50,858 nucleotides of DNA from a virus. The notes beneath the pieces are model-generated. The model did no database searches, was not told the DNA's origin, and saw only the letters and a list, made by a program, of their open reading frames with translations. The DNA is taken from positions 1 through 50,858 of the IMG/VR virus record IMGVR_UViG_3300028392_001917. The stretch is one strand, 5' to 3'. The position numbers were made by a program, and so were the translations under genes. Below are positions 4,922 through 50,292 of the stretch, in pieces (position 1 is the stretch's first letter; every line of letters begins with the position of its first letter).

Positions 4922-4929
4922 TATTTATA
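4922..4929 (-). promoter_or_regulatory. T4-type late promoter box TATAAATA
   Basis: Exact match to the T4 late promoter consensus read by the gp55-type sigma factor. It ends seven bases before the ATG at 4914 and contains the TAA stop codon of the upstream bilin reductase gene. In T4, transcription starts about six bases after the box, which would leave almost no 5' leader. Confidence 0.75.
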
Positions 4930-5596
4930 CTACTTCTGGAAACAATACTTCACGTACAAATCTCTTGATAACAGGTTCTGCCACACCCATGCTAACCATA
5001 CTGCGTATAACATGTGGATTCTGCTTTTGATAGTGACAATAACGATTCTGCGCCATATGATAATCCGCTGCATCTTGCTGCGTATTTCCTACGTTTTTTA
5101 CATAATAATCTAAACTATCCAGGGCTAATTGACATAAATCGTCGAGTTCTTTGCCTTCTTGTACATTACCCGCAGCAACCATGTTATCGCTAAAGATGTT
5201 ACGTGCCCATTCCGGAAGTTCTCTAGACTTTTGCCATCCGTATTTTTTAGTCTCAATACCAAACCAACGCATCATGTCATGGTTAGAATCACCTGCTGAA
5301 CTGAAATCACAGAAAGCACCTGTGATCTTATTAGGTCCACATACAGCATCAAATCCCCAAATTGGACTTGGATCGTTGAAATGTGGGAATATGGTACAAT
5401 GTAATATATAGATTTTGTGAGTTTCTCTATTATCTACAATTTCTATATGTGCTCTACGATAACGTGGACTTGACCAAAGTTGATTATGCCAGTTATAGTC
5501 TGTGCCCACGGTGCTATCTATAGGTTCACCTGTAGTATTGAATCGATCTTCAATCTGTTTGGCTAATTGCTCAATTTTGTTCCAAACTACTGTCAT
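4925..5596 (-). CDS. pcyX: Ferredoxin-dependent bilin reductase (PcyX/PebS-like)
   Basis: 223 residues. The segment HCTIFPHFND, PIWGFDAVCGPNKITGAF and CDFSS is the signature of ferredoxin-dependent bilin reductases (PcyA/PebA/PebB/PebS/PcyX), with the conserved catalytic-region Asp at GFD (about residue 83). These reduce biliverdin IXalpha to phycobilins. PcyX is the variant described from oceanic phages outside cyanobacteria, paired with a heme oxygenase as here. The ATG lies inside the end of the heme oxygenase gene (26-base overlap), so the two are co-translated and act in sequence: heme to biliverdin to bilin. The subfamily label rests on context, not alignment. Confidence 0.85.
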   Translation of the reverse strand: MTVVWNKIEQLAKQIEDRFNTTGEPIDSTVGTDYNWHNQLWSSPRYRRAHIEIVDNRETHKIYILHCTIFPHFNDPSPIWGFDAVCGPNKITGAFCDFSSAGDSNHDMMRWFGIETKKYGWQKSRELPEWARNIFSDNMVAAGNVQEGKELDDLCQLALDSLDYYVKNVGNTQQDAADYHMAQNRYCHYQKQNPHVIRSMVSMGVAEPVIKRFVREVLFPEVV

Positions 5597-6116
5597 ATGA
5601 TTCCATTATTTTAATTGCCCATTCAAAGGCTATATTGGCTTCAACAGCCATATCGTCTGACAACATGGTACGTACAGTTTTAATTAACTCGGCACGATCT
5701 TCAAACTCTAAATGTGTATGTGGTGCTTCAACAATCTTCTTGATCATTTGTCCACCATGCAAGTCGCCCATGTGCCATGTATAAAGATGTGCCATAACAC
5801 GAGTAGGATCACCTAATGTTCGTATATAACTAACATACTCTTTGGTCACTTCTTTATAGGTATTGAAACTGCCTACAGGTTTATCCATGGCTTCGTAATC
5901 ATCCATGATTAATCCTGCACGTTCAAAGCCCGGCGGCAATGCATTTAACAATCCTGCTTTACGAGCAGCATGTTCAATTTCTTTATACCAAAGTTGTTTT
6001 TGATATGTAAAGTCTACCCATACATCATAGGGTAGAGTTTTGGCAAATACCGCTTTCATAAAAAGGGTATCTTCCGCTTTTTGATGTTTATCAGCGGTTA
6101 AATCTTTTAGGCTCAT
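5571..6116 (-). CDS. Heme oxygenase
   Basis: 181 residues. The proximal heme-ligand region is visible as TADKHQKAED (His11), and the distal helix motif as HMGDLHGGQMI (about residues 116-125; usual form GDLSGGQ). The enzyme opens heme to biliverdin IXalpha, CO and Fe2+ using ferredoxin-type electrons in the cytoplasm. Product and neighbour agree: the bilin reductase gene overlaps its 3' end. It follows clpS after nine bases. Released iron could also feed the diiron ribonucleotide reductase and rubrerythrin encoded in this window (inference). Confidence 0.92.
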   Translation of the reverse strand: MSLKDLTADKHQKAEDTLFMKAVFAKTLPYDVWVDFTYQKQLWYKEIEHAARKAGLLNALPPGFERAGLIMDDYEAMDKPVGSFNTYKEVTKEYVSYIRTLGDPTRVMAHLYTWHMGDLHGGQMIKKIVEAPHTHLEFEDRAELIKTVRTMLSDDMAVEANIAFEWAIKIMESYDSSLEQN

Positions 6117-6125
6117 AGTAGTTCC

Positions 6126-6431
6126 TTATTCGGGTTCTACTTTAATTATCAAAGGATACCCCTGTGCTCTGGCTAAATTGGTTCCGTCAACAGCTTTTTG
6201 TTCTGCTACTTCAAAACTATAAATTCCTGCCACAGCACTACCTTTATTATGTATTGCCAGAGTTAATGCAATAGCAGACTTTTCATTATGCTTGAATATT
6301 GACACAAGCATGGCAATTACAAATTCCACAGAAGTTTGATCATCATTACACACAATGACTTTATACTTGCTGGGTTCTTTAAGTTTGGCAGTAGTCTTAG
6401 ACTTTTTGTCTACAATGATATCAGTGGTCAT
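6126..6431 (-). CDS. clpS: ClpS adaptor of the ClpA/ClpAP protease
   Basis: 101 residues. A short charged leader is followed by the ClpS core: YKVIVCNDDQTSVEFVI, with the N-D-D-x-T motif that recognises N-terminal destabilising residues, then IHNKGSAVAGIYS and AEQKA. ClpS hands N-degron substrates to ClpA. No ClpA is seen in this window, so the phage protein probably redirects the host protease. It lies between hsp20 and the heme oxygenase gene in one transcription unit. Confidence 0.9.
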   Translation of the reverse strand: MTTDIIVDKKSKTTAKLKEPSKYKVIVCNDDQTSVEFVIAMLVSIFKHNEKSAIALTLAIHNKGSAVAGIYSFEVAEQKAVDGTNLARAQGYPLIIKVEPE

Positions 6432-6468: not shown

Positions 6469-6903
6469 TTATTCGCCCTTGAGTTTAAGGACACGTGGTT
6501 TCAAAGCATCAGGAACGATACGCTTTAATTTAATGGTAAGCACACCATTCTTGATAGTTCCATCTCCAACTTCCATATGTTCAGCTAATGTCCAGCTACG
6601 TGTAAAGTCTCGGAATGCAAGTCCACGATGTAAAAATTCAGCAGTTACATCATTGCTTTTATCTCGAATGCCTTTGACAATGAGTTGATTTTGATCAATC
6701 TCAACTGTAACTTCGTCCTTAGCAAACCCTGTAACAGCAATTTCAATCTCGTAAGAGGTGTCGTCGTGTTTAATAATGTTGTAAGGGGGATAGTTGTCTT
6801 TAAGTTGATTTGCAAAACGATGTTCAAAATCTTCAAACATTGTATCAAATCCCAGAAGTGCTCTGTTGAGAGCGTTGGTGTCGAAACGTACTAATTGTGT
6901 CAT
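6469..6903 (-). CDS. Small heat shock protein, Hsp20/IbpA family
   Basis: 144 residues with the alpha-crystallin domain of IbpA-type chaperones: YEIEIAVTGFAKDEVTVE, LIVKGIRD, FLHRGLAFRDFTRSWTLAE and NGVLTIKLKR. It binds unfolding proteins and holds them for DnaK. It has its own sigma70-like promoter (6987-7016), a GGGCATAGTGCCC inverted repeat shared with dnaK exactly 31 bases before the ATG, and an AAAGGAG ribosome binding site. T4-like phages often carry such a protein. ClpS follows directly. Confidence 0.93.
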   Translation of the reverse strand: MTQLVRFDTNALNRALLGFDTMFEDFEHRFANQLKDNYPPYNIIKHDDTSYEIEIAVTGFAKDEVTVEIDQNQLIVKGIRDKSNDVTAEFLHRGLAFRDFTRSWTLAEHMEVGDGTIKNGVLTIKLKRIVPDALKPRVLKLKGE

Positions 6904-6986: not shown

Positions 6987-7016
6987 ATTATACAGTCTCT
7001 TGAACGTCGGCTGCAA
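6987..7016 (-). promoter_or_regulatory. Sigma70-like promoter for hsp20
   Basis: TTGCAG, an 18-base spacer and TATAAT on the minus strand, overlapping the last codons of dnaK. The -10 box is perfect; the -35 box matches four of six positions. It lies upstream of the hsp20 leader repeat. Confidence 0.5.
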
Positions 7017-8889
7017 CCACGCCATCTTCCGCATCTTTTTTAGCCTGTTCTTCAGCTTTTTTAGCTGCTTCTTCGGCTTCGTGCTTCTTGGCTGTAATTG
7101 GACCCATTGCTTGATAAAGTTTTGGAACGCTGTCTTGAATGATTTTAGGATCATCACCTTTGATAGCATCACGAATTGCCTGTGCTGCATCGTCGGCATT
7201 GGCCTTTTCTTCTTCAGTAACTTGATCACCAAACTTATCAATATCTGCTTGGAATTCATTTAGGGTAGATTCTGCGCTATTACGTGCTTCAATAAGCTCA
7301 CGTAGTTTCTTATCTGATTCGGCATTAGCTTCGGCGTCTTGAACCATACGTTCAATTTCGTCTTTGCTAAGTCCGCTATCGGATTTGATAGTGATCTTAT
7401 TTTCTTGGCCGGTGCCTTGATCCTTGGCACTAATATTCATAATACCATTGGCGTCAATATCCAAAGTAACTTCAATTTGCGGAGTACCTTTACGTGCTGG
7501 AGGAATTCCACTTAATTTAAATTCACCAAGCAATTTATTGTATTGAACAAAATCACGCTCTCCCTGGAATACTTTAATATCCACAGCAGGTTGATTGTCT
7601 TCGGCTGTACTAAACACTTGACTATGTTTGGTAGGAATGGTTGTATTCTTTTGAATCAACTTAGCCATTACACCGCCCTGTGTTTCAATACCAAGACTTA
7701 GTGGAGTAACGTCCAGCAATAGAACGTCTGTACGTCCACCACCTAATACGTCACCCTGGATAGCAGCACCAGCGGCAACTGCTTCGTCTGGGTTAACATC
7801 CTTACGTGGTGCCTTGCCGAATAGTTTCTCAACTGTTTCGATAACCTTAGGCATACGTGTCATACCACCGACTAAGATAACTTCGTCGATGTCGCTGGCA
7901 GTAACACCTGCATCTGCCATAGCAGTTTTGCAAGGCTCAATACTACGTTGGATCAACTCGTCAACAAGCTGTTCCAACTTCGCACGAGTGATCTTAACAT
8001 TCATATGTTTAGGACCACTTGCGTCTGCTGTGATGTAAGGCAAGTTAACATCTGTTTGTGCTGAACTTGACAATTCAATCTTAGCTTTCTCAGCAGCTTC
8101 TTTCAAACGCTGGAGTGCCAACATATCCTTCTTAAGATCAACGCCGTTGTCTTTCTTGAATTCATCGACCAAGAAATCCATAATACGTTGGTCAAAGTCT
8201 TCACCACCTAAGAATGTATCACCGTTAGTAGATAGAACTTCAATTTGTTTGTCGCCATCAACGTTGGCAATTTCAATAATAGATACGTCAAATGTACCAC
8301 CACCTAGGTCATAGACAGCAATCTTACGATCACGCTTGTCTGCTTTATCCATACCATAGGCAAGAGCAGCGGCAGTTGGTTCGTTGATAATACGTAGAAC
8401 TTCAAGTCCTGCGATTTTACCAGCATCTTTAGTTGCTTGACGTTGCTGGTCATTGAAGTAAGCAGGTACGGTAATAACTGCCTGTGTAACTTCATGTCCA
8501 AGATAGTCTTCAGCTGTGAGTTTCATCTTACGAAGAACTTCGGCTGAAATTTGTGGAGGGGCAAGTTCTTGATCATTTGCACTAACCCAAGCATCACCAT
8601 TGCTGGCTTCGATGATTTTGTAGGGCATTAGATCAATGTCCTTCTGCACAGCTTGTTCTTTAAACTTACGTCCAATTAGACGCTTGGCTGCATAGATTGT
8701 ATTTTTTGGATTAGTAACTGCCTGGCGTTTTGCACTGGCACCTACAAGGATTTCATCGTTAGCATAGGCAATAATACTAGGAGTAGTTCTTGCACCTTCG
8801 CTGTTTTCGATTACTTTGGGGATACCGTTTTCAATAACGGCTACACATGAATTGGTTGTACCGAGATCGATACCGATTACTTTACTCAT
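6988..8889 (-). CDS. dnaK: Hsp70 chaperone DnaK
   Basis: 633 residues, full bacterial length. The N-terminus [20 protein letters not shown], the phosphate motif [14 protein letters not shown], the adenosine motif [11 protein letters not shown], the interdomain linker [13 protein letters not shown] and an acidic C-terminal tail are all present. It is an ATP-driven folding chaperone. No DnaJ or GrpE is seen in the window, so it presumably uses host co-chaperones. Expression is from its own consensus sigma70 promoter at 8972-9000, with an inverted repeat in the leader and an AAAGGAG site. A phage-encoded, apparently intact DnaK is uncommon. Confidence 0.97.
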
Positions 8890-8971: not shown

Positions 8972-9000
8972 ATTATAGATAGATCATGTATCTGTGTCAA
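8972..9000 (-). promoter_or_regulatory. Consensus sigma70 promoter for dnaK
   Basis: TTGACA, 17-base spacer, TATAAT: a perfect match to the bacterial housekeeping consensus on the minus strand. The -35 box overlaps the end of the upstream small gene, so dnaK is uncoupled from the operon above it. Confidence 0.85.
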
Positions 9001-9262
9001 CATGATCGGCAGCTTTTGCTACATTTTTCATTATTTCTATATATTTTTTACTACTCTGCTCCGAATCAAAATTGGATATCCTTTGTTCACCTAATGTTTT
9101 TAACATTGGATGAATTAACTTTTCTGTGATCCTACGACTCATATTTTCTAAAACCGTGTCTATGTCTTCGCCCTGGGCAATTTTTTGCATAGCACGACCT
9201 GTTTCAAACATTTGAACACGACCGGCCCATGACTTCATAGACTCACCGGGTTTAATTTTCAT
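8984..9262 (-). CDS. Conserved small protein, unknown function
   Basis: 92 residues, charged and predicted helical. No family recognised. It begins with an ATG that shares its first base with the peptidase gene's stop codon (TAATG), so it is the last gene of the coupled operon running from 13.1 kb. Its end carries the dnaK -35 box. Confidence 0.6.
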   Translation of the reverse strand: MKIKPGESMKSWAGRVQMFETGRAMQKIAQGEDIDTVLENMSRRITEKLIHPMLKTLGEQRISNFDSEQSSKKYIEIMKNVAKAADHVDTDT

Positions 9263-16765: not shown

Positions 16766-16999
16766 TTAATACATCTTTTTGGGTAATTGCTGGTCACGTA
16801 GCTTTTTACGCCAGCGGGCTTTGGCTGCACCTTTGGCTCTTTTTCGGACAGTTGTAGGTTTTTCGTAGAATTCTTTGGCTCGATAGTCGTCCAAAAGTCC
16901 AGAATCTTCCACCTTTTGTTTTAGTTTTCTTAATGCTACGGCTATGGGTAGATCGCCAACAATAACTTTATTTCCGAATACTCTATTTGGTTTGCTCAT
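16766..16999 (-). CDS. rpsU: Ribosomal protein bS21
   Basis: 77 residues from the ATG at 16999; an in-frame TTG at 17014 would extend it by five residues. The core [17 protein letters not shown], then [28 protein letters not shown], is the S21 helix-linker-basic helix layout. S21 binds near the 30S platform and helps mRNA start selection. Phage copies are thought to replace the host protein and bias translation. It overlaps the end of clpX by 17 bases. Confidence 0.92.
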
Positions 17000-18215
17000 T
17001 TTTATTCTTATCAAAAATCATAATGGCCGACTCGCCATTCACAGTATTCTTACTTATCCGAATTAATGATAAACCGCGTTCTACAAGTTCAACAGCGTCA
17101 AATTGATAAGGCAACAATATCTTTTCAATGATATTTTTCAATCCACGAGCGTTAGTTTTAAGTTCTTTTGCTTTGCCAGCGATTTCCTTTAGTGCATCTT
17201 TCTCAAATTCTAGTTTAATACTATCCAATTTAAACATATATTGATATTGTTTAACTGGACTGTTCTTTGTTTCAACTAAAATTTGTACAAGTTGTTCTTC
17301 TGTAAGTTCTTCTACATTAATAATAAGTCCAAAGCGCCCAACAAATTCTGGAATCAAACCATACTTAATCAAGTCTTTGGTATTCAAATCCTTATATACA
17401 GCATTGCTATCTTCATTGGTGTTTACATTAGCATGAAATCCTACAGATCTAGCATCAGTACGTTGTTTAATGATCTTATCAATTCCAACAAATGCTCCGC
17501 CACATATAAACAATATACCACGGGTATCAATTTCCTGCATCTCACTGCCTGGATGTTTACGTTTACTGGTAGCAGGTATACGCATAATACTACCTTCAAT
17601 CATTTTCAATAATGCTTGCTGTACACCTTCGCCACTGACATCTCTGGTAATACTAGTGCTTTCACCTTTCTTGGCAATTTTATCAATTTCATCAATGTAA
17701 ACAATACCTTGACTTGCTTTCTCAAGATCACCGTCTGCTTCACTGATTAATCGTGTAAGAATACTTTCCACATCATCCCCTACATAACCTGCTTCAGTGA
17801 TACCTGTGGCATCGCAAATGGCAAAGGGAAGATCCAAGTAATCAGCAATCTTACGTGCCATCATGGTCTTACCGCAGCCAGTGGGCCCTAACATTAGCAC
17901 ATTGGTCTTTTCAATTTCTATATCAGGGCTAGGATTGTTGATACGTTTAAAGTGTTGACTAACTGCTACACTAAGAGCAATTTTAGCATCGTCCTGACCG
18001 ATTACATAGTCATCGAGATAGTCTTTTATCTTAACAGGATTTAATAGTTTAGCCTGTTCGGTTGGCGCTTTGATTTTTTCATCAACTAAAATGTCATTGC
18101 ATAGATTAATGCAGTCATTACATATAGCTGCCTGTTCACCAACAATTAATTTTTCAACATCTTCTTTACTTTTTCCGCAAAAGTCGCAGGAGTGATGATC
18201 TTTAAGTTTTGTCAT
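16983..18215 (-). CDS. clpX: ClpX unfoldase ATPase
   Basis: 410 residues, full length. The zinc-binding domain ([13 protein letters not shown] and CNDCINLC) is followed by Walker A GPTGCGKT, the GYVG pore loop, Walker [11 protein letters not shown], the RKH loop (KRKHPG) and a VGF tripeptide where ClpX normally has the IGF loop that docks on ClpP. It unfolds tagged proteins, including tmRNA-tagged ones, and feeds them to ClpP. No ClpP is seen here, so host ClpP or a stand-alone remodelling role is likely. Together with the window's tmRNA it suggests control of protein turnover. Confidence 0.96.
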
Positions 18216-20673: not shown

Positions 20674-21561
20674 TTAGAAACTGTATTCGAAACCAGCACC
20701 ATAACGTGTGGTATCAGTGGCAGCACTCTCTTTCAAATAACGTGCAAGTACTTTGGTGTTTTTACCCAAAGCATAATTTGCACCTAAGTTATAAGACTTA
20801 AGAGCACCATTCTCACCATAACTAGCCATTGCGGTTAGTGTAGGAGTTACTGTTTGGTTTACACCAACGCTCTTACCTTGGTTTGCTACAGTGGCTACTT
20901 TGCTATCGGAATATAATCCAAAAACAGTTGTACCAGTTTTGGCAAGACTAAACTTAGCACCATAAACATCAGTTGTGCTGGTTAAGCCGTTGTCATAACG
21001 AGCCCAGGTAGCAGCAACAGGTCCAGTGGAATAAACCAAACTAGCAGTGTATGGATTTGGAGTACCAGCAACTTCACTGTTAGACAATTCATACTTACCT
21101 ACAAGTCCTTGAACAAGTGTAGCAGATACAAATACTGTATTGCTCATACGTGTTCCTTGATAGGAGTGAATAGTGGCAGCACTGGAACCATACAAATCAC
21201 CACCCATGGCATCGAATGCATCAAGTGATTTAGTTAGGGCAGTCTTATCGCGGCCAAGTCCAATGGATCCAACTTTGTTTGATAAGCCAACGAGAGATAC
21301 ACGATCTCCGAGTGTAGTAGCTGCTGGAGCATCAACACCTACGTTGGCTTCGACTGTGACAAATGCAGTCAAACCATTGCCAATGTTGTCGCTGGCTTTG
21401 ATACCGATACGGCTTTTGTCATTGGTTAAAGATGTTACAGATGCTGCTGTGCCGACAGTAGATGATTCTTCATAGACACGAGCCATTCCGTAAACGGAGA
21501 CATCGGCTTGGGCGAATCCCATTAGGCCGATTGATAATGCAAATATTGCAAGTTTTTTCAT
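20674..21561 (-). CDS. Outer membrane porin
   Basis: 295 residues from the ATG at 21561, chosen because AAAGGAAA precedes it and a clean signal peptide follows (MKKLAIFALSIGLMGFAQAD). The mature start VSVYGMARVY, the segment SRIGIKASDNIGNGLTAFVTVEANV, VGLSNKVGSIGLGRDKTAL and the final aromatic YSF are classic for Gram-negative trimeric porins (16-stranded type). A complete host-type porin in a phage is unusual; it may change nutrient uptake or block receptor use by other phages (inference). Own promoter and terminator. Confidence 0.9.
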   Translation of the reverse strand: MKKLAIFALSIGLMGFAQADVSVYGMARVYEESSTVGTAASVTSLTNDKSRIGIKASDNIGNGLTAFVTVEANVGVDAPAATTLGDRVSLVGLSNKVGSIGLGRDKTALTKSLDAFDAMGGDLYGSSAATIHSYQGTRMSNTVFVSATLVQGLVGKYELSNSEVAGTPNPYTASLVYSTGPVAATWARYDNGLTSTTDVYGAKFSLAKTGTTVFGLYSDSKVATVANQGKSVGVNQTVTPTLTAMASYGENGALKSYNLGANYALGKNTKVLARYLKESAATDTTRYGAGFEYSF

Positions 21562-21605
21562 ATTAAAATTTCCTTTAGTTTTGTATAGTCTAGAAGACAT
21601 ACTAT

Positions 21606-22190: not shown

Positions 22191-22325
22191 TTATGTTGTT
22201 AATTCTTCGTAATCAGCTTTACCTACGCCGCATTCTGGGCAGCAGAAGTTATCATCAAGATCTTCCCAAAGACCTTCAGTTTCTTCATCGTGGATGTGAC
22301 CACATACTATGCAAACGTGTTCCAT
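22191..22325 (-). CDS. Rubredoxin-like protein, separate from rubrerythrin
   Basis: 44 residues from the ATG at 22325, which shares its first base with the rubrerythrin stop codon (TAATG). CIVCGHIHDEE and NFCCPECGVGKADYEEL are the two Cys knuckles (C-x-x-C-G and C-P-x-C-G) that bind one iron, with a shorter loop than typical rubredoxins. It transfers electrons, most simply to the diiron rubrerythrin encoded directly upstream, which lacks the C-terminal rubredoxin domain usual in that family. Confidence 0.88.
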   Translation of the reverse strand: MEHVCIVCGHIHDEETEGLWEDLDDNFCCPECGVGKADYEELTT

Positions 22326-22774
22326 TATAGTTTCTCCAATACTGCTTGATATGCTTGAGCATGACGCTGCTCTACCTTTTGTAGTGCGGAGAAACGTTTC
22401 TCCGCTCGGGCCAATACTGCTTTAAATTGTTCAGCATGTTCTTTGCTTTCTTCAATTTGCTCATCAATTGTTTCTAATACATTTAATGTTCCTTCAATAA
22501 TGGCATCATTTCTAAAAGTTGGATACATTGTAGTGAACTCATATGTTTCACCTTCAATGGCTTTTTCCAAACATTCTTTAGTTGATGGCTTACCGATCAA
22601 CAATTCCAAATGACCCCATGCGTGAAGCAATTCTTGGTCTGCTGTATGTTCAAAATGTTTAGCAACTTCTTCAAACCCCTCAGCGCGAGCAATACGTGCA
22701 AAGTATCTATATTTGACATGTGCTTGGCTTTCTCCGGCCAATGCATCTTCTAAATTTTTAATAGTAATCGACAT
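22325..22774 (-). CDS. Rubrerythrin, diiron domain only
   Basis: 149 residues, all helical. Iron ligands are visible in four helices: ALAGESQAHVKY, HTADQELLHAW, AIEGETYEFTTMYPTF and DEQIEESKEHAEQF. Rubrerythrins reduce hydrogen peroxide. The C-terminal rubredoxin domain is absent and instead encoded by the next gene, so the enzyme is split in two. Own promoter at 22798-22826 and an AAGGAG site. Confidence 0.92.
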   Translation of the reverse strand: MSITIKNLEDALAGESQAHVKYRYFARIARAEGFEEVAKHFEHTADQELLHAWGHLELLIGKPSTKECLEKAIEGETYEFTTMYPTFRNDAIIEGTLNVLETIDEQIEESKEHAEQFKAVLARAEKRFSALQKVEQRHAQAYQAVLEKL

Positions 22775-22873: not shown

Positions 22874-22899
22874 AAAAGAAAAGCACCCGAAGGTGCTTT
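22874..22899 (-). terminator. Intrinsic terminator of the tmRNA gene, UUCG tetraloop
   Basis: Minus strand AAAGCACC-TTCG-GGTGCTTT followed by TCTTTT. Third UUCG-capped terminator in the window. Confidence 0.85.
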
Positions 22900-22904
22900 C
22901 TGCT

Positions 22905-23150
22905 ATTTTGGATGACAAGGTATAACTACCTCGGAGATCAAGCGGCTAGCGCCCAAACCTCATCGTTAGATGCGTTTGCATTTAAAGTTTTTTGTGTCTT
23001 CGACCGGGAATCCCCAATCCTACGGCTTCTACATTGCCGAGTAGATCTTTTTAATACTTGTTACCACGTCGAAACTGTGTCATCCCCACCTAAATATACA
23101 ATATACACTTAGGTGGAGATGCCGGGCTCTGCCCCCGGGTCCGCGATACT
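22905..23150 (-). ncRNA. ssrA: Circularly permuted (two-piece) tmRNA
   Basis: Order on the minus strand: acceptor piece, spacer, coding piece. The acceptor piece has a 5-bp T-arm-like stem CCGGG/CCCGG, then CATCTCC and ACC (+ 23112-23121). A 24-base spacer follows, and the coding piece starts GGGGATG at 23087 with GTTTCGACG after it. GGGGATG pairs with CATCTCC as a 7-bp acceptor stem; CGTGGTA pairs with TATCGCG as helix P2. The tag frame at 22979-22938 encodes ANASNDEVWALAA plus stop, close to the usual AND...ALAA. It rescues stalled ribosomes and marks products for ClpXP. Exact ends are approximate. Confidence 0.9.
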
Positions 23151-23274
23151 TTTCTCTCCAAGCGTTAAACTACCATTCTTTTTCGTGACATACTTGATTT
23201 AAGTCTGCCACTACTAAAACCTTTAAGGACATATTCTTGCTGTTTTTCAAAAGGGATTACAACTATTCTTTTAT

Positions 23275-23589
23275 TTAACGCTGATAGCAATTACGCTCGC
23301 GATAAATTTGTCCATCGGGTGTTTGAATCTCTTTCCAATCAGTACACATAACACGGGGTTGTTGTACAATAACGGGCTGTTGCTGTACAATAACCGGTTG
23401 TTGTTGCACTACAGTCTGCGACTGATTAGCATTGGCAATAACGGCTCCTGCAATTCCACCAAGGATCAAAGGACCCACCCAATCATTGCGTTCAACAACG
23501 ACAGTACGTTCTGGATAACGATGATGCCATTGGGCGTTTGCTGCCGTGGCTGCTACCAACATAGTAATTACAAATACGAGTTTTTTCAT
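23275..23589 (-). CDS. Small secreted protein with VVQQQPVIVQQQP repeats
   Basis: 104 residues. Signal peptide MKKLVFVITMLVAATAANAQ, a glycine-zipper-like stretch ILGGIAGAVIANA, three V/Q/P repeats and a Cys-containing end (CTDWKEIQTPDGQIYRERNC) that may form a disulfide. An AGGAG site precedes the ATG. It resembles small surface proteins of Gram-negative bacteria; function unknown. Confidence 0.68.
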   Translation of the reverse strand: MKKLVFVITMLVAATAANAQWHHRYPERTVVVERNDWVGPLILGGIAGAVIANANQSQTVVQQQPVIVQQQPVIVQQPRVMCTDWKEIQTPDGQIYRERNCYQR

Positions 23590-23644
23590 TTCTATCTCCT
23601 GTTAGTTAAATAACGCCTTAGAACACTGTTGTGTTGACATTATT

Positions 23645-24265
23645 TTACTTGTTTGCTAGAGGATTGTCAATAGCTTTCTGTATCTTTTGGTCAAGTTCCT
23701 TTTTCAATACTTCCACTTCTTTGGTAACTTCTTTCTTCAAAGTTTGAGTTTCGGCATTGATCTCTCTACGGGCTTGAGCCATTTCTGTACGAACTGCTGC
23801 TGCTTCACTACGGGCTTTGTCCAAATCTTCTCTAACACCTTTACGCATATCACGCATTTCATTTTCAGATTCACGCTGTGCTTGTTTAACACTACGCTCA
23901 ACTTGTTCAGTCACGCTTTCATTACGACGAATATCATTCTTTAAGTCATTCTTAATATCACGAGTGTAATCACTGGTCTTACCACTATTCTCTTCGATGA
24001 CTGCCAAACGCTTGTCAAACCCGCTAAGGTCTGGAGCAGAATAATCAGCAATCTTTTTCTTCATACTTTGGTAGTCTTTGTAAACTTCAAAGGCACCATA
24101 TAGACCACCTAGGCCAGATGATACAATAGTAAATGCCACCATTAGTTTTGCTGGTGTAAATTCATAACCACCAATACTAATAACAGTATCTTTACTAGCA
24201 TACTTTTTTGCTGCTGCTTCAAGTTCGTCAACTTTGGCATCTACACTTTTAATTTCTTCTGTCAT
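23645..24265 (-). CDS. Single-span membrane protein with long coiled coil
   Basis: 206 residues from the ATG at 24265, preceded by AAGGAG; an earlier start would overlap the upstream stop. One membrane helix lies near residues 40-60 (LMVAFTIVSSGLGGLYGAF), followed by about 130 residues of charged heptad-like coiled coil. Probably inner membrane with a long soluble arm. It directly follows the two large secreted proteins and may work with them. Confidence 0.68.
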   Translation of the reverse strand: MTEEIKSVDAKVDELEAAAKKYASKDTVISIGGYEFTPAKLMVAFTIVSSGLGGLYGAFEVYKDYQSMKKKIADYSAPDLSGFDKRLAVIEENSGKTSDYTRDIKNDLKNDIRRNESVTEQVERSVKQAQRESENEMRDMRKGVREDLDKARSEAAAVRTEMAQARREINAETQTLKKEVTKEVEVLKKELDQKIQKAIDNPLANK

Positions 24266-24275
24266 TTTTATCTCC

Positions 24276-26804
24276 TTATTTGTATTGCATATCAATCATT
24301 TGTTTATGCAAACTATCACTACTCATTTGTCTTAATGCTCGAGCATTATCAACCACTGTTTGTCCCTTATAAACTTCTTTGGGTTCATAAAAGGCTGCAT
24401 CCCTTAATGCAACACTATATACTTCAAACCCTTTTGGTTGTAGGGCCATTGATGCAATATCAACGCTGCCTGCTAGATCATTTGGTTGTACATTTCTATT
24501 AACTGTACTGGTTTGTTGTTGTATATTTTCTTGCATCATTTCAAAACGTTGTTGCATTAAATCCGATAATGGACTACCTGCACGAGCATTTCCAAAACTG
24601 GCTATTTGTATTGCAGGTACTTCTACTTCATTTACTTTTGTTTCATTGCGTAGTTGATATGTAGAGGCAGATTGTACAGTTGGTTGTGTATTGGCAGAAC
24701 TTGCTACATTGAATAAGTTAAGTCCAATTGGATTATTTTTCCCAATAACTAACCCAGCACCACTATTGGATTGGGCAGTACTTTCTGGTATTGGCGGTGC
24801 TGGCGGTTTTAACATACTTGAACTGCTGACTGATGTATCTTGTTGCTGAACATTGATATTAGATGACATCATTGATAATGTGATTACTCCAGATGCTGCT
24901 TGTTGTACTTGTTGAGTTTCCTGTGCTTGTTGTGTGGCACGATAAGAATTATTTGATTGTCCTTGTTGACCAGACGACTGATTAAACTGTTGAGTTTGTT
25001 GCATTGTTGTCTGTGATGTTCCTATAGATGCTTGAGTTGATTGGCTAGAAAACTGTGCTGCGGCTGCTGCACTATTAGCACTCATATCATTTAATGATGC
25101 AATGGCTGCGGCTGCCGTAGCCTGTGATTGCTGTGTAGATCCTTCTACTATTCTAGCAGCATTTTGTACCGCCATCTGTTGTGTGGCTTTATCTCTCTCT
25201 TGCGCGGCTCTTGCTACACTTAATGCGGCACTTGGAGTCATTCTAGGACCGTCGGCTTTACTTGGACCTGCTTGCTGTGGCCCAGAACTTGTAGGCGGTG
25301 CAGACTGTGCTGTCTGTGGAGGACCACCTGCTGGTTGCGGAGTTGTAGGTGCTGGTCCTGCTTGTTGTGGATTAGGCTGTGCTGGATTATCTTGTGCTAC
25401 CACTGGATTCTGATTTGGATCTTGTCCAGTACTTGCCGACTGTTGTTGCGGTGATTGCTGGGCGGGTTGCTGTTGTGCTTGTTGTTGTGGTTGTGCAGGA
25501 TCAGGACTTGCTAATGCTGGTGCAGACTGTGCTACTTCTGGAGATGCCGCTGCTGGTGCAGGCGCTGCTGGGGCGCTGGCACTTGCTACAGTTGAACCTA
25601 AGATCATATTTTTAGCATAGGCAACGGCATAACCAGGGCAAGTGGTACTTGACAAAGGATTAGTCACACACGGGTCTGGTTTATAAAGAGCATTAACATA
25701 CATATTTTGAATTGCCGCATTACCCGATGTACTAGCACCTAGTGTAAAATTACCTAATGATAATGAATTTGTTGTACTGGCAAGTAAGAACTGATATGAA
25801 ACATTTTCAGCAGTATTAGGAGTATTTCTACTTTGTGTGGCAGTATAAATTACATCATTGCTACTGTTGGTTAATCGTACTCTCATAGTAGCATTTGGAT
25901 TGTTAGTTAAGTAGGCGCCGCAGGTAAAAGCATTATCCCAACTTACACATTCGTTGGTCCTTGTACCATTGCCTAAACTATAATTATAACCATAGTTGAA
26001 ACCGTATACTTCAACACCTGCTCCAGAACTTTTAAGTGCTGTATTGATAGCAAATGAATTGTAAACTATATCACCGTTGGACATTAAATTTGAATTTACT
26101 AAATTACCACTAGTGACTACGCTACTAAATCCTGAGCAATTAGGACTGTATGCAGGATTAAGACTACAAGGATCAACTCGATATTTCAAACTAAAACTAA
26201 CGTTGGTAATTTCTGGACCATAATTACCAGCCCAAAAGTTATTGTCCTTACCAACAAAGCCAACTCGTGCATTGCTATAGTTTGTAGCCGCTATAGGATT
26301 GGCAAATGTTTCACTAAAGTTGAAATCAGTCCAGTTGTATTTGGCGTTAGTATGACTTAGGTAATCATATGCGGCAACCTGGGTACCGGCGGTATTATAA
26401 AACTTAACATAAGCATCTAAGTAATCTTGCCTACCGTCATCCCAGCCGTTGCCGTTTTTAGCACGAAATCCAAAATTAAAACCACTTAGTTGTACTCCTG
26501 TACCACCTGCGGCCAATGCTCGATTTATATTAACAACTTGATTTAAGTCTATTTGACCATAACTGAAATTGATACTGCCGTCGGGTCTAACACTGGGCTT
26601 AGGGCCGCAATTGCCAGGTTGGCCAGCCTGGAAACATATTTGACTAACGTACACACCATTGTTCCAAATGCTGGTTGTATCTGTAGGTGTAGTACCGGTA
26701 TTGATTAAATTACCGGTAGTAGGATCAACAGTTTGGGCTTTAGAATGACTTATAAACGATAGCGCCAAGCAAAGCACCAAGGCCCATTTTAGTATACGTG
26801 TCAT
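24276..26804 (-). CDS. Large secreted protein with duplicated domain and Gln/Pro/Ala-rich region
   Basis: 842 residues. A signal peptide (ALVLCLALSFISHSKAQ) is followed by two related domains (about 30-220 and 235-375). Both contain GAG/GTGV-x-(L/V)-x-GFN-(F/Y)-G-(F/Y) and end in a DPC-x-x-NP-x5-C-x-G(Y/F) motif. Residues about 400-640 are low-complexity Pro/Gln/Ala/Ser; the C-terminal 200 are more ordered. The start overlaps the upstream gene by 65 bases and is preceded by GAGG. Probably extracellular or periplasmic. No known function. Confidence 0.72.
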   Translation of the reverse strand: MTRILKWALVLCLALSFISHSKAQTVDPTTGNLINTGTTPTDTTSIWNNGVYVSQICFQAGQPGNCGPKPSVRPDGSINFSYGQIDLNQVVNINRALAAGGTGVQLSGFNFGFRAKNGNGWDDGRQDYLDAYVKFYNTAGTQVAAYDYLSHTNAKYNWTDFNFSETFANPIAATNYSNARVGFVGKDNNFWAGNYGPEITNVSFSLKYRVDPCSLNPAYSPNCSGFSSVVTSGNLVNSNLMSNGDIVYNSFAINTALKSSGAGVEVYGFNYGYNYSLGNGTRTNECVSWDNAFTCGAYLTNNPNATMRVRLTNSSNDVIYTATQSRNTPNTAENVSYQFLLASTTNSLSLGNFTLGASTSGNAAIQNMYVNALYKPDPCVTNPLSSTTCPGYAVAYAKNMILGSTVASASAPAAPAPAAASPEVAQSAPALASPDPAQPQQQAQQQPAQQSPQQQSASTGQDPNQNPVVAQDNPAQPNPQQAGPAPTTPQPAGGPPQTAQSAPPTSSGPQQAGPSKADGPRMTPSAALSVARAAQERDKATQQMAVQNAARIVEGSTQQSQATAAAAIASLNDMSANSAAAAAQFSSQSTQASIGTSQTTMQQTQQFNQSSGQQGQSNNSYRATQQAQETQQVQQAASGVITLSMMSSNINVQQQDTSVSSSSMLKPPAPPIPESTAQSNSGAGLVIGKNNPIGLNLFNVASSANTQPTVQSASTYQLRNETKVNEVEVPAIQIASFGNARAGSPLSDLMQQRFEMMQENIQQQTSTVNRNVQPNDLAGSVDIASMALQPKGFEVYSVALRDAAFYEPKEVYKGQTVVDNARALRQMSSDSLHKQMIDMQYK

Positions 26805-46920: not shown

Positions 46921-49900
46921 TTATCTACGCACGAAATGATAATCGCCATCTGGGCCATTATTGCTAAACAGTCCTAGACAATCATAGCCCAATGAATCCA
47001 TATAAGCGATTACAGTATCTTTTAGTGGAGCACCTTTATTGTACTCTACTATCTGTAATTCTAATATAATGTGTTTGGCAGTTTTAATAGTTTCCTGTGC
47101 GCCTTTAAGTACATCCATTTCTGCGCCTTGCACATCCATTTTAATTAGATCAGGTGGTGGATATTTATTAAGGCTAACCACTGCATCGAGTGTAATAGTT
47201 TTAAGTTTTCTTACATATTTGTCACTGTACAGAGTTGCTGCTGCTGGTTGAATATCAGGATTTTCTCTGTAATAGCTATTGCCGCCAGGTGCTTCATTGT
47301 TTTGATAGAAGTCTACTTCTTTGCCGCTTTCATTGCTGAGTACACCAATGAAGTATTTTACACCAGCTTCCTGATATAAGAACTCGTGTACATCTGCTGC
47401 TTCAAATGCTACAACTTCTGCTTCAGGCCATATATTTCTAACTCTATCTGTCCAATGCAATACACATGCACCAATGTCATAGATGACCTTAGGTTGTACG
47501 CCACCTTCTTTTAGTTTATCAAGGTATTCGATGTGTGCTGGAGGGAATGGATATGGATCACGTAGCTCTCTTAGAAATTGTTTAATATCAACAATAGTAC
47601 CATTTGTTTCTATCACAGGTGTATTCTGATCAACGTTGAATGTAAAACTTCCAATATGTCTACATAATATTCCAGGATCTGCCCAAATAGTAAATCCGTT
47701 TTCTCCTGCCTTTCTACAGAAATCTACATCTTCGGATACAGTATCATTGATGCTTATAGCACTATGGTATTTAAATTGAGGATATCCTATTTTTCTAAAT
47801 ACTTCTCCCTTGATCAACGCACAGCCAAATCCACATCCTGCAACTTGTGTTAAGGGCCTACCTTTTAATTTTCCATAAGGCATATTAATCATACCACCTG
47901 TGGGAGTATGTTCGTATATTTCTATAATATGTTCTCCAGGTTTACGTTGTATGTATATACCGCTAACAACATCTTTATCATGTGATAACATTCTTGCCAA
48001 TGTATCAGGTGCAAATGCAATATCACTATCTACCGCAAGTAGATAATCAAATCCATGTACCACCCAATCTGCAATTAAATTGCGTACTTGATCTATGTTA
48101 TATCCATAGAAAAATTGAAACATTGTTTCATAACCGTCTGGTATGATAAGATCGTAGATACTTTTAAAAGTATCTGGCTCAATATTTTTAGCTGTGGGTA
48201 TTGCTATAAGTATCTTTTTTTTAGGTTGAATCATTTTCTGTACTATCTCATGTGCATTTTTATTTTGTTCTACTGCATTAACCTTATAATCATTTAAAGG
48301 ACTTGCATCATTATAATTATATACAATATCTTGTAAGCATTTTACCTGGTTAGGATCTGCTTGTTCTATTAATGCGTAAAATACGCTACCATCGCCACCG
48401 GCTTTGTACCAATTACCATTACTATCTTTAAATGAACTATCATTGATATTGTTTAACAATGACTTTTTAAATGTTCTTAAATGTGTATAAGGTAATATCC
48501 AGTTAAAATGATGATCTCTATAGGATTTATTTTGTTTAACTGCTTCAGGATAAGGTTGACTGATCAGTGGAATGTTATCAACCATGCTCCAGCAACTACC
48601 ATAGGTAAATTCAGTGGTACCGTCATAGATAGAATTGTAATAAGAGAATACTGTATTATCATTAATAAGACTGTCATCTCCGTCTAACAACATAACAATG
48701 GTATCATCTGCGACCATTGATCTAATGTTTTGTATTTGATTTCTAACTGCGCCTAAGTTTTCTTTATTAGAGATAACAGTGAACTTACTTCTAATATCTT
48801 CTGGTAATGTTTTCAATGTTTCTATAATAACCTGTACAGTATTATCTGTACTAGCATCATCAATTAAGATATGTTCATAGTTATCGTAGTCCTGTACAGC
48901 CACACTGGTTATACAACGAGAAATATACTCAGCACAATTATAAAAAGGACTAACAACTACTATCTTTTGTTCATTGCCTGATTTATAATGTTCTAATTCG
49001 ATAGTGTTAGTAAACCTGCGATTCCATATCTTATGTACTTTGTGATTAATCTTTGATACGCGACGGTATCCATCTTTAGATAGATATTTGCCCAGCCGCT
49101 GCGCCATTAATTGTTTCCACTGTAGAGCAACACTATCCCATCCTGCTACATCTTTAACAATATTACAGTAGTATTGTTTTTGTTGATGTAGATATCTATT
49201 ATGATAGGCTTGTATAGTCATCTTTACAAATTTATTAATTTGTTCTTCACTATTGATATCAGGGAACAAGCCGTTAGGTTCTATAGCATAGTCAATATGA
49301 TAACAAGCACCTTCTAGAGCAATTTCTTCCAATGCGCCAAATCTACAAGTAAGTATAGGAGTATTGTAGAGTAAACTTTCCAGTGATGATATACCAAATG
49401 TTTCAGGAAACGCAGCAGGGTAGATCATAAAACTTGCTGATGTAAGTATATCAGCAATTTCTCGTTGAGGAATAACTCCTGTGTATTCTATACCTAATTC
49501 TAAGTTACGTGGATCGGCCGCCATAATGCGCCAATCTTTTTCCTGTTGATCAGGTTCCGATGCTTGACTAAATCTATAATATCCGCCTATGATTTTTAAT
49601 CTAGCACTGGGTATCATTGCTTTAACCTTGGGCCAAATATGATTCACTAATGGGATCATACCTTTAGTCACACTGGCGTTATAGACAAACAAGTTATGAT
49701 CTTTAGCACCAATGTCAACTTCTTTTCTATAATTACGAGCACCATTACGTGTAATAAACATCTTACGTTTAAGTACTTCAAAATTACGTCTACGTCCGTG
49801 ATGGCAGTTAGCCACGTAGGTTAAGTGAAAATCGCTGAGTGTGAATATATCAGTGATGCGATCTGCTACCACAAGTTCTTCAATGATATTATCACCGAGA

Positions 49901-50292
49901 CAAAATGTATCATGCATCCAAAGTATACGCATGGTAGCCTTGGATAGTATTCTATCATACAAGTTCATACTGTGGAATGGATATGCTCTACCATCGCCTA
50001 ACTTTTCGTAGTCTTTAGGATCAGTAAATGGTATTACAGTTCTTGAGCTTATAACAATATCAAAAATATAATCGTTGGCTAATTCATCAAGTGTACGATA
50101 TTCAACACCTTGATAATTTCCAGGATGAGCATGATCTGTATTGCAGTTATTAAACACTGTCACATCAAATCCAATTTGGGCCAATTCATAGGCCATGAGT
50201 GTTACAGCACTTTCGCTGCCTCCCAATCCTTGATTGTCTATGGTATTACCATCATAGGGTATGCCAATAATATCTATAATAGCAAGTTTCAT
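46921..50292 (-). CDS. 1123-residue fused glycosyltransferase/methyltransferase
   Basis: Four domains in order. 1: GT4-like (about 1-420), with LGGSESAVTLMAYEL, YNASVTKGMIPLV and AFPETFGISSLESLL. 2: GT2 (about 430-690), with VVVSPFYNCAEYISRCITSV, LIDDASTDNT and MLLDGDDS. 3: a second GT-A-type domain (about 700-910), with ILIAIPTAKNIEPDTFKSIY and LLAVDSDIAF. 4: FkbM-type methyltransferase (about 930-1123), with VIYDIGACVLHW and LIKMDVQGAEMDVLKGA. It probably builds and O-methylates a short glycan on a virion protein, DNA or host surface. The acceptor is unknown. Own sigma70 promoter. Confidence 0.8.
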   Translation of the reverse strand: MKLAIIDIIGIPYDGNTIDNQGLGGSESAVTLMAYELAQIGFDVTVFNNCNTDHAHPGNYQGVEYRTLDELANDYIFDIVISSRTVIPFTDPKDYEKLGDGRAYPFHSMNLYDRILSKATMRILWMHDTFCLGDNIIEELVVADRITDIFTLSDFHLTYVANCHHGRRRNFEVLKRKMFITRNGARNYRKEVDIGAKDHNLFVYNASVTKGMIPLVNHIWPKVKAMIPSARLKIIGGYYRFSQASEPDQQEKDWRIMAADPRNLELGIEYTGVIPQREIADILTSASFMIYPAAFPETFGISSLESLLYNTPILTCRFGALEEIALEGACYHIDYAIEPNGLFPDINSEEQINKFVKMTIQAYHNRYLHQQKQYYCNIVKDVAGWDSVALQWKQLMAQRLGKYLSKDGYRRVSKINHKVHKIWNRRFTNTIELEHYKSGNEQKIVVVSPFYNCAEYISRCITSVAVQDYDNYEHILIDDASTDNTVQVIIETLKTLPEDIRSKFTVISNKENLGAVRNQIQNIRSMVADDTIVMLLDGDDSLINDNTVFSYYNSIYDGTTEFTYGSCWSMVDNIPLISQPYPEAVKQNKSYRDHHFNWILPYTHLRTFKKSLLNNINDSSFKDSNGNWYKAGGDGSVFYALIEQADPNQVKCLQDIVYNYNDASPLNDYKVNAVEQNKNAHEIVQKMIQPKKKILIAIPTAKNIEPDTFKSIYDLIIPDGYETMFQFFYGYNIDQVRNLIADWVVHGFDYLLAVDSDIAFAPDTLARMLSHDKDVVSGIYIQRKPGEHIIEIYEHTPTGGMINMPYGKLKGRPLTQVAGCGFGCALIKGEVFRKIGYPQFKYHSAISINDTVSEDVDFCRKAGENGFTIWADPGILCRHIGSFTFNVDQNTPVIETNGTIVDIKQFLRELRDPYPFPPAHIEYLDKLKEGGVQPKVIYDIGACVLHWTDRVRNIWPEAEVVAFEAADVHEFLYQEAGVKYFIGVLSNESGKEVDFYQNNEAPGGNSYYRENPDIQPAAATLYSDKYVRKLKTITLDAVVSLNKYPPPDLIKMDVQGAEMDVLKGAQETIKTAKHIILELQIVEYNKGAPLKDTVIAYMDSLGYDCLGLFSNNGPDGDYHFVRR

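Follow-up and report, generated by a model that had tools for sequence, protein, structure and literature searches.

The window analysed here, a whole virus record of 50,858 bases that is itself a fragment, contains a genuine phage tmRNA gene of the permuted, two-piece kind, intact and under selection. tmRNA releases ribosomes that have become stuck and marks the incomplete protein for degradation, and it is usually regarded as a cellular housekeeping RNA. We consider it likely that the jumbo phage in question encodes a working permuted tmRNA for ribosome rescue and tagging, using the SmpB of its host. Permuted tmRNAs of phages are known already; what is new here is a nearly virus-only branch of them and the unusual interval between its acceptor and coding pieces.

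Anatomy and selection of the permuted tmRNA gene

The Rfam model tmRNA_permuted (RF04321) matches the minus strand of the window from 23174 to 22938 with 109.8 bits (E 1.2e-20, gathering score 47) over 213 of its 213 positions; these coordinates delimit the model match and not the precursor, whose 5′ and 3′ termini may differ (Table 1). The alpha_tmRNA model (RF01849) also scores above its cut-off (59.7 bits versus 50). A sequence-only reading had proposed a circularly permuted tmRNA at this locus, with a covariance-model search as the check, and the end-to-end match bears this out. Its range, 22905-23150, stated with no strand, was right as to the locus, missed about 24 nt of the acceptor piece and took in the terminator. 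The gene order that it gave (acceptor piece, 24-nt interval, coding piece) agrees with the model match and the coordinates, and its acceptor stem GGGGATG/CATCTCC and P2 CGTGGTA/TATCGCG lie where it had placed them. It did not mention that G3 stands opposite U70 in the acceptor stem, which is the alanine identity pair of tmRNA. The RF04321 score, the gene order, two joining stems with G3.U70 and a tag frame are found together in one gene.

A standard one-piece tmRNA was ruled out, as RF00023 gave no match in the window. ARAGORN detects most of the relatives' permuted tmRNAs and does not call that of the window. When the window gene was folded without constraints, P2, the T-arm and the long 19-bp hairpin of acceptor stem and interval all reappeared (z = -3.05). 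The T-loop GGCAGAG is indeed not the usual TTCRANY, as had been pointed out, but the doubt attached to it is removed, since the loop is ordinary for permuted tmRNAs: it also occurs in four other viral ones, and GGCGGTA or GGCAGTA is found in 27 of 28 alphaproteobacterial ones. The T-loop was therefore dismissed as an argument against a tmRNA, GGCAGAG and GGCRGTR loops being common.

Table 1. Features of the tmRNA locus and of neighbouring genes in the window.
Feature	Position	Strand	Basis or remark
Permuted tmRNA gene	22938..23174	-	RF04321 109.8 bits, E 1.2e-20
Acceptor piece (P2 5′ strand, T-arm, acceptor 3′ strand, ACC)	23112..23174	-	RF04321, sequence; stems covary in relatives
P2 5′ strand TATCGCG	23142-23148	-	
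T-arm CCGGG-GGCAGAG-CCCGG	23122-23138	-	
Acceptor 3′ strand CATCTCC	23115-23121	-	
ACC	23112-23114	-	followed by T (23111)
24-nt interval	23088..23111	-	first base U in place of A of CCA; perfect 19-bp hairpin with acceptor stem
Coding piece up to tag stop	22938..23087	-	RF04321; pattern nearly confined to viruses
Acceptor 5′ strand GGGGATG	23081-23087	-	
P2 3′ strand CGTGGTA	23062-23068	-	
P3 hairpin	23023-23039	-	coding piece
Second hairpin	23002-23019	-	coding piece
Tag frame ANASNDEVWALAA and TGA	22938..22979	-	translation; peptide shared with L273, codons differing synonymously
Intrinsic terminator	22874..22900	-	3′ of tmRNA
104-aa gene, no assigned function	23275..23589	-	ORF directly upstream of tmRNA
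Promoter-like site TTGACA-17-TAAAAT	23642..23670	-	consensus match only; upstream of 104-aa gene
S21	16766-16999		PF01165, E 4.7e-14
Phage ClpX	16983..18215	-	TIGR00382 495.5 bits; zinc finger and AAA domains
Phage ClpS adaptor	6126..6431	-	PF02617, E 8.1e-25

We then examined covariation in viral relatives, for which 102 genes were extracted and 79 non-redundant ones kept among the matches listed for the coding-piece pattern described below; pairing was not demanded beforehand, and 1000 shuffles were made. Among these listed matches, acceptor pairs 4-6 are formed in 92-96% of the 79 genes, with compensatory changes, and the T-stem pairs in 99-100%; none of the 1000 shuffles, which leave shared ancestry in, matched the observed pairing of the acceptor stem and T-stem. 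Six of the seven P2 pairs covary in the same 79 genes as the acceptor stem does. G1-G3 and U70 were search anchors in the relatives, and their constancy there is not evidence. Repeated CG/GC/AT exchanges across intervals of 9-383 nt would be hard to explain without the structure. A chance match was ruled out by the RF04321 score and by covariation beating the shuffles.

The tag, including its stop, is located as previously read, and its frame consists of a GCA resume codon, ANASNDEVWALAA with its hydrophobic terminus in AA, and TGA. The same peptide is encoded in the viral relative L273 despite synonymous changes, and L243 and L316 carry a close variant, which is conserved between them while the synonymous sites differ. 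The tag ends in LAA in 60 of the 79 genes among the matches listed. Judged by these substitutions, the tag frame is shown to be under selection. Unusually long tags of 26-33 residues (e.g. ANANTTGTVKVTMGKNFRFGRQAANDSAVLLAA), versus the usual 10, occur in L159, L161, L163, L168, L229, L251, L252 and L268.

This bears on whether the gene could be a host tmRNA gene acquired by chance, now a passenger or a decaying copy, since tmRNA genes often serve as integration sites and pieces of them are known from prophages (PMC9004378). Against such an origin, the stems, the tag frame and the terminator are all intact, the covariation and the synonymous tag changes show selection, a permuted tmRNA is kept in five of five large relatives, and the coding-piece type is almost missing from cellular genomes; we hold a passenger to be very improbable.

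A nearly virus-only type and its interval

The coding piece of the window carries the pattern CGGCAANGNNGAAGCCGT...GCAAACG, which is present in at least 120 viral contigs, against just 14 contigs in the 84,980 genomes of bacteria and archaea. Being exact, the pattern would miss diverged cellular cousins. Thirteen of these 14 matches have no tmRNA anatomy, and the genes of the remaining genome contig (L189, 3,004 bases) match the viral contig L265 (77% over 252 residues). In the collections searched, this coding-piece type thus appears to be nearly confined to viruses. A cellular origin of the coding piece was rejected on the same counts. L189, which is filed under a gammaproteobacterial genome bin, resembles a piece of one of these phages.

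In trees of permuted tmRNAs, the alphaproteobacterial genes stand apart from the beta and jumbo-phage types, and the window tmRNA falls between the groups in a position that shifts among runs; because of this instability, we claim no origin for it. Within the Rubrivivax family, scanning turned up mainly weak matches. The window gene shares gene order, stems and tag with the families RF04321, RF01849 and RF01850 (beta_tmRNA), its T-loop is like that of alpha genes and its CCN-ended interval like the beta consensus, whereas the coding-piece pattern nearly confined to viruses sets it apart from all three. For close relatives from jumbo phages the beta model gives the highest score, and for the window the alpha model. 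Immediately on both sides of the tmRNA, the window is 86-90% identical to L158 and L090, whereas 22882-23250 cannot be aligned to them apart from 46 bases of the acceptor hairpin, and L158 has a beta-type tmRNA in this position. The tmRNAs most closely related to that of the window are in other contigs (L228, 84%/282; L305, 78%/385; L273, 86%/216). The simplest reading of these alignments is that the tmRNA has been swapped as a cassette between phages with its place kept.

A phage-borne two-piece tmRNA has been published for the Methylophilales phage Melnitz and the Pelagibacter phage Mosig (PMC9004378); the earlier remark that a permuted tmRNA on a phage is notable was therefore right as to the carrier and weaker as to novelty. 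As in the window, theirs is a permuted two-piece tmRNA on a large tailed phage with host SmpB as the presumed partner, but the window's coding piece is of another type and the window, unlike Melnitz and Mosig (PMC9004378), yielded no glutamine riboswitch.

As the sequence-only reading had it, only ACC of the tail is encoded in the window, followed by T, which gives a CCU tail in place of CCA. This is within the known range, because the beta consensus of Rfam, CCACCc, likewise lacks an encoded CCA and, according to the tmRNA database paper (Fig. 1 legend, PMC11915505), genes differ in whether CCA stands at that position. Among the matches listed, CCA is encoded in 66 of the 79 genes and absent from 13, including the window (11 CCU, 2 CCG). 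Twelve of these 13 listed genes have an interval of 24-29 nt that forms a perfect or near-perfect hairpin on the acceptor stem; in L255, likewise CCA-less, an interval of 55 nt and different sequence makes the same pairing with the acceptor stem. A hairpin-sealed acceptor end without CCA is not an obvious RNase P substrate, and maturation of the window's tail presumably must include trimming and CCA addition. The window gene is a natural test of permuted tmRNA maturation with no encoded CCA and the acceptor end sealed by a hairpin.

The sealed CCU form might also be a decoy that stays immature and uncharged, competes for SmpB or the ribosome and damps host trans-translation. The CCU end with its fully paired interval hairpin, kept in the 13 CCA-less genes of the 79 among the matches listed, would suit this, and a precedent is the tag-less tmRNA of mycobacteriophage DS6A, which inhibits endogenous tmRNA in E. 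coli according to work cited in PMC11915505. However, a decoy needs no tag, and while the DS6A gene, as described there, is a phage tmRNA gene without a tag frame, that of the window is permuted and has a full tag, intact and selected. G3.U70 is also retained in the window gene, most relatives (66 of 79 among the matches listed) encode CCA, and the beta-type consensus likewise has no encoded CCA. A decoy is therefore improbable, and a working tmRNA remains our preferred reading.

We next looked at the intervals of the relatives. Small protein genes lie within the tmRNA interval in L203, L222, L223, L232, L248, L260, L282, L288 and L303. In many members with long intervals, the nested frame starts 10-15 nt after CCA, behind AAGGA, a ribosome-binding site that follows the CCA immediately, and in L203, L222, L223, L232, L248, L282 and L288 its TGA lies one base before the coding piece; this TGA belongs to the usual leader, and the stop alone is no independent evidence. 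The dN/dS ratio is 0.10-0.21 in five of six homologue pairs (two with few differences) and 0.43 in the sixth, and the nested protein of L222 matches DUF2061 (3.5e-20), suggesting that the nested small protein genes are under purifying selection. A tRNA-Arg (anticodon CCG) lies inside the interval at L161:1699-1772 and L163:1693-1767, both beta-type jumbo-phage genes, while ARAGORN found no tRNA in the intervals of the virus-only set. A tRNA-Ala in one interval has been described as a unique feature among 97,179 sequences (PMC11915505), and we found no report of nested protein genes in tmRNA intervals in the open-licence literature. The interval of the window itself holds no nested gene. On balance, we lean towards a nearly virus-only permuted tmRNA lineage in large phages in which the interval is a gene slot, taken by small proteins and, in two jumbo relatives, by tRNA-Arg, the window being the minimal form with a sealed CCU hairpin. 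If this is true, a single transcript would yield a two-piece tmRNA together with a small mRNA or a tRNA, and the nested genes of the relatives would be a new way to pack genes into an RNA precursor.

Partner proteins and proposed function

Upstream of the tmRNA, at 24276-26804, lies the gene of an 842-aa protein whose relatives belong to a large group of phages that includes five records of 340-353 kb, picked via this protein and not via the RNA. A permuted tmRNA and ClpP are present in each of the five and ClpX in four, and SmpB was found in none. In records of 320-364 kb, ClpP is found in 9/9 and ClpX above cut-off in 8/9, four of these nine having been chosen via the tmRNA pattern, so that only the first five are unbiased for tmRNA. 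A search for SmpB in the window and 42 other phage records (25, then 18 further records) gave nothing, and the same search was positive in 10 control genomes; the phage tmRNA would therefore depend on a host. A tmRNA branch in large phages with ClpX and ClpP and without SmpB suggests that these phages manage rescue and the disposal of tagged proteins. Among 50,697 phage records, none was related at the DNA level to the window tmRNA, to L165's tmRNA or to the 6.8 kb surrounding the gene, nor did any protein match the 842-aa neighbour. Next to the tmRNA of L164 (L164:1894-1968) is a tRNA with anticodon CTA, labelled tRNA-Pyl by ARAGORN, which is more probably a phage suppressor tRNA that reads amber codons.

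ClpX and S21, which had been named as neighbours of the tmRNA, are both real by profile match. The phage ClpX is a candidate user of the LAA tag, and ClpS is possibly part of the same protein-disposal set. The 104-aa gene, which has no Pfam match, adjoins the tmRNA in L079 and L090 too and is probably co-transcribed with it; the promoter-like site may drive both.

We infer the following steps, from transcription, processing and charging to tagging with the help of host SmpB, as well as their benefit. The precursor would be a minus-strand transcript, probably shared with the 104-aa gene upstream, and would end at the terminator. Nucleases would excise the 24-nt interval, after which the acceptor stem and P2 would keep the acceptor and coding pieces joined. 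Trimming would remove the U that follows ACC, and the host's CCA-adding enzyme would supply the terminal A. Charging via G3.U70 would fall to the alanyl-tRNA synthetase of the host, and host SmpB and EF-Tu would deliver the tmRNA to ribosomes stalled on broken mRNA. The tag would be added and the tagged chain would go to ClpXP, with phage ClpX, together with the ClpP found in relatives, as candidates. The benefit would lie in ribosome recycling and clean-up during mRNA breakage in infection.

A functional tmRNA could also serve mainly to destroy tagged host proteins for amino acids and not for rescue, as proposed for phage Melnitz (PMC9004378), and phage ClpX and ClpS, with ClpP in relatives, would be in keeping with this. 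However, tagging requires a stalled ribosome, and selectivity for host proteins would need host mRNA breakage; we give this purpose very little chance of being the main one.

Other genes of the window

This one phage fragment has a set of protein-quality genes, namely ClpS, Hsp20 (6469-6903), DnaK (6988-8889) and ClpX, the last with S21 beside it. Directly downstream of the tmRNA are a rubrerythrin (22325-22774) and a Gram-negative porin (20674-21600). At 4925-6116 and 8984-9262, the window has a heme oxygenase with a ferredoxin-dependent bilin reductase adjacent to it, and a small protein matching the dimerisation domain of glutamyl-tRNA reductase (cf. PMC11480375). At 46921-50292, a 1,123-aa protein combines two glycosyltransferase domains with an FkbM methyltransferase domain.
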